From Treponema sp. (GTDB lineage: Bacteria; Spirochaetota; Spirochaetia; Treponematales; Treponemataceae): a DNA stretch of 60,939 nucleotides. This document shows, piece by piece, positions 28,133-30,404 of this stretch. Position numbers and translations under genes: made by a program. The stretch lies in the NCBI GenBank assembly GCA_024683675.1, contig JAIKYB010000123.1, forward strand, positions 1-60,939, given 5' to 3'. Positions within the stretch are counted from its first letter, which is position 1. Each line of letters starts with the position of its first letter. Below the pieces are notes generated by a model. That model did no database searches. It was not told where the DNA came from and saw only the letters and a program-made list of their open reading frames with translations.

Positions 28133-28714
28133 ATGATTTTAACTGTAGGTTTTGATGAAGCTGGCAGGGGGCCTTTAGCAGGTCCTGTTGCCGCAGCCGC
28201 TGTAATTCTTCCTCCTGATTTTCCTATTGAGATTCTTAATGACTCAAAAAAGCTTTCAGAAAAAAAACGCCTTTATGCAGAGACTATCATAAAAGAAAAA
28301 GCCTGCTGGGGAATCTCTCTTGTAGACCATGAAACCATAGACAAGATAAATATCCTGCAAGCTTCTATGCTGGCAATGAAAAATGCCTTTATCCAGCTGC
28401 AGGAAAAGCTTCCTGCCTGGGCTAGTGCTTTAGCTATAAATGATTTTATTCTTTCTGGAATTACAGATGGAACTCGATGTCCTGATGTCAATATTGAATG
28501 CCGCTGCGAACCCAAGGCCGATGGAAAATATCCTCAGGTTATGGCTGCAAGTATACTTGCAAAAACCGCTCGTGACCGTTTGATGTTAGAAATGGATAAA
28601 AAATATCCTGAATATGGATATGCTAAACATAAGGGCTATCCCACACCGGAACATAAAAAAATATGCCGCCGATTAGGACCATCCCCAATACAGCGGCTTT
28701 CTTTTAAGTATTAG
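28133..28714 (+). CDS. rnhB: Ribonuclease HII
   Basis: 193-residue RNase HII, which removes ribonucleotides from DNA-RNA hybrids. The catalytic motif FDEAGRGPLAGPV (Asp and Glu metal ligands) opens the protein, NDSKKLSEKKR follows, the later acidic residue is in the CEPKADGKYPQVMAAS segment, and AKHKGYPTPEH is the conserved C-terminal loop. It follows the upstream stop by one base. It is convergent with the PUR-domain gene; the 15 bases between them hold an A run but no convincing hairpin. Confidence 0.97.
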   Translation: MILTVGFDEAGRGPLAGPVAAAAVILPPDFPIEILNDSKKLSEKKRLYAETIIKEKACWGISLVDHETIDKINILQASMLAMKNAFIQLQEKLPAWASALAINDFILSGITDGTRCPDVNIECRCEPKADGKYPQVMAASILAKTARDRLMLEMDKKYPEYGYAKHKGYPTPEHKKICRRLGPSPIQRLSFKY

Positions 28715-28729
28715 CTTTAATAAAAAAAA

Positions 28730-29146
28730 TTACTCTTCTTCAAGGTTCTTTTTGCTGACAATGTGAATTACTTTTCCAGTTCTTTTAATTCCATCATCAG
28801 TTTTCTGATTTTTACCTTCAGATTTTACGCGGTAAATCTTCTTTCCGTCTGAATTTCCCTTACCGTATTTTGCATCCTTTGCGGCCTTCTTTTCTTTTGC
28901 AGCCTTTATGCGTTCTTTTCTATCCTTTTCTACAAAATCAAGAGATTTTTCCATTCCCTGAAGGAACTTCTGCATATCTTCAGCAAAAATAGCTATTTGA
29001 TGACGGTCTGCTTCTACACCATCACGATTCTTGCTTTCTACAATCTGCAGAAATACGTCGCCTGTTCTGTTTTCTTTTACATTGAAAAAATAAGATCTGT
29101 TGTCCAGATAGACTTGAGTGGTAAAAAGTTCTCCTCGTGCTCCCAT
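28730..29146 (-). CDS. PUR-domain nucleic-acid-binding protein (BpuR-like)
   Basis: 138 residues. The N-terminal 75 residues match the bacterial PUR-alpha fold, with MGARGELFTTQVYLDNRSYF, FFNVKENRTGDVFLQIVESK and DRHQIAIFAEDM, very like Borrelia BpuR, which binds DNA and RNA. A Lys-rich helical tail (RKERIKAAKEKKAAKDAKYG onward) extends beyond the Borrelia length and may add non-specific nucleic-acid affinity. A perfect AAGGAG ribosome site sits 6 bases before the ATG, with a hairpin directly upstream. It lies downstream of the cysteine desulfurase gene on the same strand, with a 109-base gap. Confidence 0.92.
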   Translation of the reverse strand: MGARGELFTTQVYLDNRSYFFNVKENRTGDVFLQIVESKNRDGVEADRHQIAIFAEDMQKFLQGMEKSLDFVEKDRKERIKAAKEKKAAKDAKYGKGNSDGKKIYRVKSEGKNQKTDDGIKRTGKVIHIVSKKNLEEE

Positions 29147-29152
29147 AAAAAT

Positions 29153-29191
29153 CTCCTTGGGAAGCGTTCACATATGAAAAAGAACCTTCCC
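29153..29191 (-). promoter_or_regulatory. 5' leader hairpin abutting the PUR-gene ribosome site
   Basis: Read on the minus strand, GGGAAG-GTTC (29191-29182) pairs with GAAC-G-CTTCCC (29169-29159) around a 12-base AU-rich loop, leaving one bulged base (29165). The 3' arm ends at 29159 and the AAGGAG ribosome site begins at 29158. A structure this close to the Shine-Dalgarno could control initiation. Pairing is seen; regulation is inferred. Confidence 0.5.
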
Positions 29192-29255
29192 TGATAATGT
29201 TGAAATGAATTAGTGAATGTATATTAGCAAATAAACTTCTTTTGCGCAAGATTTA

Positions 29256-30404
29256 TCAGGAATTGAACTGGGCATTAATTTCGCTGATTGCGTCAAAGAG
29301 TTTATCTACAGCTTCTGCCTTTGTATGAGGGCCAAAACTGAATCTTACTGCACTTTCCCTGATATCTGCACTTACATTCATTGCTTCAAGAATAGGACGA
29401 TTGTTTTTTCTGGTAGAGCAGGCTGAACCTGTTGAAATACAAATGCCCTTTGAATCAAGTGCCCTTAGCATTACATTCCCCGGAATATGAGCAAAGCCTG
29501 CCTGTACAACATAAGGAGAATAAAGCTCAGGCTTTTCAAGACGGCCCTGTGGTACAATCGTACAGCCCTTTAATCCTGAAAGCTTTTTTAAAAAAGCATC
29601 TGTAATTGATTTTTGCCCTGAATTATCTTTGTTGTAATAGCGTTCCAGACATTTAGAAAAAGCAACTGCTCCAAAAATGTTTTCAGTTCCGCTTCTAATT
29701 CCCTTTTCCTGACCGCCGCCTCTTAAAAAGGCTTCAATAGGCTCCTTTGAATAAAGCAGGCCAATTCCTCTAGGTCCGCAAATCTTATGGGAACTGAAGG
29801 CTGCGCTATCTATACCCTTATGGTTTAAATCAATATTGATTTTTCCTGCAGCTTGAACACAATCCACATGAAATTTTGGTCGTCTTTTTCCCTGACACTC
29901 TTTAATAAGTGCATCTGCAATTTCGTAAATCGGCTGAATAGCACCGGTTTCGTTATTTACTGCCATCACACAAATAAGCATTGTGTCATTTGTCAGCAGG
30001 GATAATATAGCTTCCGGCCTGATTATGCCGTATTTATCTGAAGGAATCTGTACAATATTCCAGCCGCAATGCTTCATAGCCATAGCCTGTTCTCTAACAG
30101 CCGGATGCTCCAGGGAACTTATCAAAACCGTACCCACAGAAGGCTTTGTCATTACAGAAAGCAGGGGAATCTGGTCACTTTCGGTTCCGCCAGAGGTAAA
30201 GTAAAGAGTGTCTTCCTTTACTCCCATAGCTTTTGCGGCTCTCTTTCTAGCTTCTTCTAAAAGGCTTTTTGCTTTTTTTCCAATTGCATGGCTGCTTGAA
30301 GGGTTTCCCCAGTTTTCAAGAGTTAGAGCAAGTGCTTCCTGCAATATATCTTCATCAGCAGGACTTGTTGCAGCCCAGTCAAAATATAAATCTTTTTCAG
30401 TCAT
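29256..30404 (-). CDS. Cysteine desulfurase (NifS/IscS family)
   Basis: 382-residue PLP enzyme that moves sulfur from cysteine for iron-sulfur clusters or tRNA thiolation. Motifs: YFDWAATSPADE at the start, YFTSGGTESDQ, the PLP lysine in SSHKICGPRGIGLLY, RSGTENIFGAVAF, and the active-site cysteine in STGSACSTRKNN. The short loop after that cysteine fits the NifS/IscS branch. No IscU, NifU or Fe-S partner is in the window. It starts 8 bases after aroB on the same strand and is probably co-transcribed with tmk, the small secreted protein and aroB. Confidence 0.94.
   Translation of the reverse strand: MTEKDLYFDWAATSPADEDILQEALALTLENWGNPSSSHAIGKKAKSLLEEARKRAAKAMGVKEDTLYFTSGGTESDQIPLLSVMTKPSVGTVLISSLEHPAVREQAMAMKHCGWNIVQIPSDKYGIIRPEAILSLLTNDTMLICVMAVNNETGAIQPIYEIADALIKECQGKRRPKFHVDCVQAAGKINIDLNHKGIDSAAFSSHKICGPRGIGLLYSKEPIEAFLRGGGQEKGIRSGTENIFGAVAFSKCLERYYNKDNSGQKSITDAFLKKLSGLKGCTIVPQGRLEKPELYSPYVVQAGFAHIPGNVMLRALDSKGICISTGSACSTRKNNRPILEAMNVSADIRESAVRFSFGPHTKAEAVDKLFDAISEINAQFNS

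Follow-up and report, generated by a model that had tools for sequence, protein, structure and literature searches.

Results

The PUR gene and its leader

The window, i.e., the whole 60,939-nt stretch of Treponema sp. DNA that was analysed, carries on its minus strand a gene coding for a PUR-domain (DUF3276) protein of 138 amino acids (28730..29146, with the ATG start codon at 29144-29146). The ORF product matched Pfam families PF11680 (DUF3276, 1e-13) and PF04845 (PurA, 9e-6), and its best PDB sequence match was 3nm7 (E 5e-14); the solved structure 3n8b was also matched. Both Pfam families and 3nm7 relate its domain to BpuR, the PUR protein of Borrelia burgdorferi. The protein starts with MGARGELFTTQ, an N-terminus that is kept throughout the genus, and its gene is present in a single copy in the window genome. 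The PUR and RNase HII genes are convergent, with ∼15 nt between their stop codons (28714-28730).

Upstream of the gene, an intergenic leader (29147..29255, minus strand) extends from the stop codon of a cysteine desulfurase gene (29256) to the PUR start codon. On the minus strand the order is AGGGAAGGTTC-TTTTTCATATGT-GAACGCTTCCC-AAGGAG-ATTTTT-ATG, the leader sequence being ...ATTATCAGGGAAGGTTCTTTTTCATATGTGAACGCTTCCCAAGGAGATTTTTATG. The Shine-Dalgarno (SD) sequence AAGGAG occupies 29153..29158 (minus strand), adjoining the 3′ arm of the hairpin described below. A possible promoter, TTGCGC-17 nt-TAATAT (29221..29249, minus strand), was read from the sequence as a weak match that falls below the consensus threshold; it would yield a leader of ∼65-70 nt. 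PUR leaders were gathered genus-wide and from GTDB genomes, which gave 121 distinct leaders. A promoter-like TATGNTA box was observed in 58/121 of them, relative to 11% of shuffled sequences, often 27-57 nt upstream of the purine motif. Judging from this box in the leaders of relatives, the PUR gene is apparently transcribed from a promoter of its own.

A local hairpin abuts the ribosome site

A sequence-only reading of this locus had placed a ten-pair stem with one bulge at one base from AAGGAG. The stem is present: a local hairpin of 33 nt, termed H1 (29159..29191, minus strand), pairs GGGAAG.GUUC with GAAC.G.CUUCCC, and is composed of a 5′ arm (GGGAAGGUUC, 29182-29191), a loop of 12 nt (29170-29181) and a 3′ arm (GAAC-G-CUUCCC, 29159-29169) in which the G at position 29165 is bulged. 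The gap to the SD, however, is of 0 bases, as the last C of the stem abuts position 29158. When the 3′ half of H1 was shuffled and its 5′ part was kept fixed, 4/200 sequences folded equally well (z -2.4). For a wider stretch of 157 nt the fold had no advantage over shuffled versions (z 0.14), and H1 is not the minimum-energy fold of that stretch. Taken alone, the hairpin of the window is only mildly unusual. Since the evidence from this single genome is weak, the case for H1 has to be carried by its conservation.

Other candidate functions of the region were tried and rejected. An intrinsic terminator or attenuator does not fit, because the stem is followed by AAGGAGA with no U-run, and no terminator-like site was found. 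An upstream leader peptide that would use GGGAAGG as its SD was discarded, since suitably spaced start codons are not conserved, and an H-type pseudoknot, in which H1 would coexist with base pairs between its loop and codons 4-7, was dropped because the inner helix of H1 occupies the same UUC(UU) bases. Rfam covariance models gave no match at the gathering score, and none at E 1 over 29080-29260.

H1 is conserved among related Treponema leaders

The hairpin is a leader module shared by 38 PUR leaders of Treponema, and almost all of these come from one T. bryantii-type clade of gut Treponema. In these leaders the 5′ arm, AGGGAWGGUUC, is nearly invariant, whereas the 3′ arm is variable yet still complementary, with modest covariation. 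The homologous local fold has the 5′ arm AGGGAAGGUUC(UU) and the 3′ arm (AA)GGGCUNUCCCU, and the GAAC-G-CUUCCC of the window is one version of the latter. The mean H1 energy of the 38 leaders was -12.4 kcal/mol, compared with -7.8 for versions with a shuffled 3′ part (sd of the set mean 0.36; relatedness uncorrected). In a model-fitted alignment, 19 cells were changed on both sides of the stem relative to 12.4 in shuffles (6/500 of which reached 19), and the in-register structure scored above slid ones. An outer-pair test made use of flanking pairs, e.g., CAA/TTG, TCA/TGA and TA/TA, that took no part in anchoring the alignment; each matched better with its own partner than with a swapped one (p 0.03), and the result was the same with 29 representatives. 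RNAalifold returned almost no consensus structure (0 pairs with the MAFFT alignment and 3 pairs with the model-fitted one), because the 5′ arm is invariant and the 3′ arm is gappy, and support for the structure hence rests on the energy tests and on the outer-pair covariation.

Leaders of related Treponema keep the stem, and some of the changes in it are compensating, but the contact of the stem with the ribosome site, to which the sequence-only reading had drawn attention, is not kept. In the 38 leaders, 37-89 nt separate AGGGAWGG from the AUG, and the motif is followed by the pyrimidine-rich arm and then by a separate SD. In most relatives the hairpin is thus well upstream of the SD, and the contact is not the conserved feature.

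A covariance model of the hairpin gave a single strong match in the window genome, in the PUR leader (E 2e-6, next-best 0.27), although the model, by the way it was built, should match its own training leaders. A wider out-of-sample check, within the 200 available genomes of the genus, turned up one further hairpin leader (G103), which by eye keeps both H1 and the long-range pairing described in the next section. In six leaders of a T. bryantii-type subgroup (L007, L035, L037, L039, L047 and L053), an extra pairing (GGGCU/AGCCC plus CCCG/CGGG) was observed between the hairpin and the SD, and it is predicted that it would compete with the 3′ arm of H1.

That the 3′ arm varies and stays complementary points to a paired RNA. 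This argues against the idea that the conserved sequence acts at the DNA level or at the 5′ end of the transcript (as an operator, an initial transcribed region or an RNA stability element), with the hairpin being incidental. PUR proteins bind DNA too (PMC3764826), and the TATGNTA box, where present, usually precedes the motif by 27-57 nt, which speaks for this idea; the distance between motif and box is variable, however, and we consider this explanation unlikely.

The 5′ arm of H1 can also pair with the coding sequence

In the minimum-energy fold of the window leader, the strand GGGAAGGUUCUUUUU (29177..29191, minus strand), which overlaps the 5′ arm of H1, pairs with GAGGAGAACUUUUUACC (29120..29136, minus strand), located inside the coding sequence at codons 4-9. 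Since the same strand pairs either in H1 or in this long-range helix (H2), the leader has two mutually exclusive predicted folds. The leader strand, which in many relatives reads GGGAAGGUUCUUUACG, is complementary to codons 4-8 (CGU GGA GAA CUU UUU). For most leaders H2 is predicted to be the minimum-energy fold. This holds for the window leader too, with P(H2) = 0.94 and P(H1) = 0.05, and H2 is more stable than H1 in 29/37 leaders.

Complementarity along H2 had a sharp maximum in register (7.9/10 pairs, relative to 2.2-5.6 at other offsets), and the duplex between the strand and the coding sequence scored -15.3, compared with -10.7 for synonymous shuffles. The consensus strand gave -15.9 with the coding starts of hairpin-bearing genes and -12.0 with those of MGAR-type genes that lack the element (Mann-Whitney p 5e-7, with no correction for relatedness). 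Of the 38 genes, 36 have GGA as codon 5, whereas GGA accounts for 43% of Gly codons at the same loci. In one subgroup (L021, L081, L187, L188 and G103) both sides of H2 are changed, with CUUCGC in the leader and GCGGAG in the coding sequence. An own-versus-swapped test of H2 gave p 0.06 on 26 unique combinations, and uncompensated changes were found in L052, L011 and L122; the H2 pairing is hence only suggestive.

The accessibility of the AUG and the SD showed no consistent difference between H1 and H2 across leaders, and the assignment of H1 as the 'on' and H2 as the 'off' state on this basis was abandoned. H1 need not be the repressed form, since the competing pairing of its 5′ arm to codons 4-8 is predicted to be more stable. 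These data bear on the proposal that the structure works without any protein, either because H1 would free the start region from the pairing of the strand with codons 4-8, or because H2 would dampen translation according to temperature, transcription speed or ribosome traffic. The greater stability of H2 and the synonymous-site bias in codons 4-8 are in its favour, but it leaves unexplained the near-fixed sequence of the 5′ strand and the retention of the motif as SD in species that lack the hairpin, and accessibility does not change consistently. We regard it as rather unlikely.

A purine motif is specific to PUR leaders

The invariant columns of the hairpin leaders define a purine motif, AGGGAAGG (29185..29192, minus strand), which contains GGA-A-GGU (GGAWGGN in general), i.e., two GGN triplets with one base between them, a type of site to which PUR domains bind. 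GGAWGG was found within positions -100 to -1 of 92/121 PUR leaders, but in only 3/58 SD-containing leaders of neighbouring genes, and the 13-mer AGGGAAGGTTCTT occurs once in the window genome. A purine-rich site of the GGN type is thus specific to the PUR gene's own leader, and the purine strand of the stem is a PUR-gene-specific motif. Compared with the hairpin, this sequence signal is the stronger result.

Three types of PUR leader could be distinguished: those with the displaced motif (the 38 hairpin leaders), those with the motif as SD, and those with neither. The second type comprises 54 further leaders with GGAWGG, which in nearly all of them lies 11-16 nt before the AUG and constitutes the SD itself. 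A(R)GGAWGG is hence characteristic of Treponema PUR-gene leaders, and is the SD in most species that have it. An ordinary SD as the explanation of the motif fails in the leaders with a separate SD; in all 38 leaders where the motif is not the SD, its second GG is retained. A structure-tolerant search for degenerate copies of the motif or hairpin in relatives classed as lacking it revealed none that was clear. In L223, a single-contig genome of 1.14 Mb from the same family that lies far outside the hairpin clade, the SD of the PUR gene is AAGGAAGGTACAGC-ATG, with the motif at the SD position. In four close relatives (L004, L005, L008 and L031), the PUR start codon is preceded by GGGGGC instead of a usual SD. 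From the comparison of these sequences, AGGGAAGG is a concrete 8-nt candidate for a PUR binding site.

The retained second GG is also relevant to a factor other than the PUR protein, chiefly CsrA, of which one dimer could bridge two ANGGA-type sites, AGGGA upstream and AAGGAG at the SD. The csrA gene is present in the window genome and in 35/39 searched genomes, and AGGGA or AAGGA occurs in both leader types. ANGGA is common in any SD, however, and the second GG, fixed in all 38 non-SD leaders, is not a CsrA requirement; furthermore, the GGA lies within the H1 stem rather than in a loop, and the published consensus RUACARGGAUGU (PMC4347634) is unmatched in the window. CsrA is a live rival, weaker than autogenous control by the PUR protein, and we judge its involvement to be quite improbable.

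Nearly all hairpin leaders belong to one clade

In a tree of 94 PUR genes, 34/36 hairpin leaders fell in one well-supported clade of 53. The distribution is consistent with an early gain of H1, followed by its loss in a nested subclade that retains the PUR gene. In that subclade, GGGAAGG stands at the SD position in L048, L057 and L062. With nearly all hairpin leaders in one clade, most of the statistics above are non-independent, and shared ancestry inflates the tests; a phylogenetic independent-pairs test was left with only 2 supported pairs and had no power. This close relatedness and the mildly unusual fold of the window hairpin (4/200) would fit an account in which only shared ancestry and an SD-like sequence are at work, with a purine-rich strand, close to a pyrimidine-rich leader, that pairs by chance with coding and SD-like sequence and regulates nothing. 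Such an account is very unlikely, as the motif is PUR-gene-specific, the module is unique in the genome, and it persists while the surrounding leader sequence diverges.

Discussion

PUR proteins are found from spirochaetes to humans, and to our knowledge few natural RNA sites of bacterial PUR proteins have been defined. The leader that carries H1 is a good candidate for a site through which such a protein controls its own production. Our preferred reading, for which we see evenly balanced chances, is that H1 is part of a 5′-UTR module by which the PUR protein limits its own translation. The precedent that the sequence-only reading had invoked, self-limitation by BpuR, is stated in reviews: one describes BpuR as binding its own transcript and repressing translation from it (PMC9112904), and another places the binding in the 5′ region of that mRNA (PMC4347634). 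BpuR prefers purine-rich RNA (KD 13 nM) and separates DNA strands (PMC3764826), and in vitro it anneals and remodels RNA (PMC13285594); Pur-alpha recognises GGN and unwinds duplexes (PMC4764581).

We infer that a dimeric PUR domain would bind the two GGN triplets of GGAWGG. Where the motif is the SD, the bound protein would directly exclude the ribosome; in leaders of the hairpin clade it might instead shift the balance between H1 and H2 around the SD and the start codon. A more elaborate version, which we find doubtful, is a two-state RNA switch, in which the RNA-remodelling PUR protein would bind the GGAAGGU strand and set H1 against H2, and which would have arisen when an ancestral SD site moved upstream into a hairpin. 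The Treponema leaders offer a natural experiment, in which one motif is found at the SD in some species and within an upstream hairpin in others, and the leader with two folds is testable. If autogenous control by the PUR protein is correct, the self-control known from BpuR would extend to Treponema, and an autogenous site could be moved without being lost.

Autogenous ribosomal-protein leaders are mRNA leaders of the protein's own gene with alternative folds that involve the SD and the start region. The Treponema PUR leader resembles them in that the protein's own leader is structured at the SD and start region, but the protein and the sequence are unrelated, and there is no Rfam match at E 1. 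With CsrA-repressed leaders it shares a GGA upstream and another at the SD, as well as the presence of csrA, and it differs from them in the stem position of the GGA, in its invariant second GG and in lacking the CsrA consensus.

The closest comparison is with B. burgdorferi BpuR, a homologous PUR protein, whose own mRNA is likewise expected to have a purine-rich site in its 5′ region, and where translational control near the ribosome site parallels our reading of the Treponema leader. The Treponema site sequence is absent from the Borrelia bpuR leaders: eight Borreliaceae leaders have GUGGAGGA or close variants of it. In these bpuR leaders (L234-L241) the SD is a conserved GUGGAGGA, followed by a purine-rich coding start, AUGGGCGAGAGAGGGGAAG. 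Hence Borrelia has GUGGAGGA at the SD without GGGAAGG, whereas Treponema has a discrete motif and, unlike Borrelia, one clade with a hairpin and a competing long-range helix. A self-controlled PUR mRNA is already known in Borrelia; what the comparison of sequences adds here is a different candidate site.
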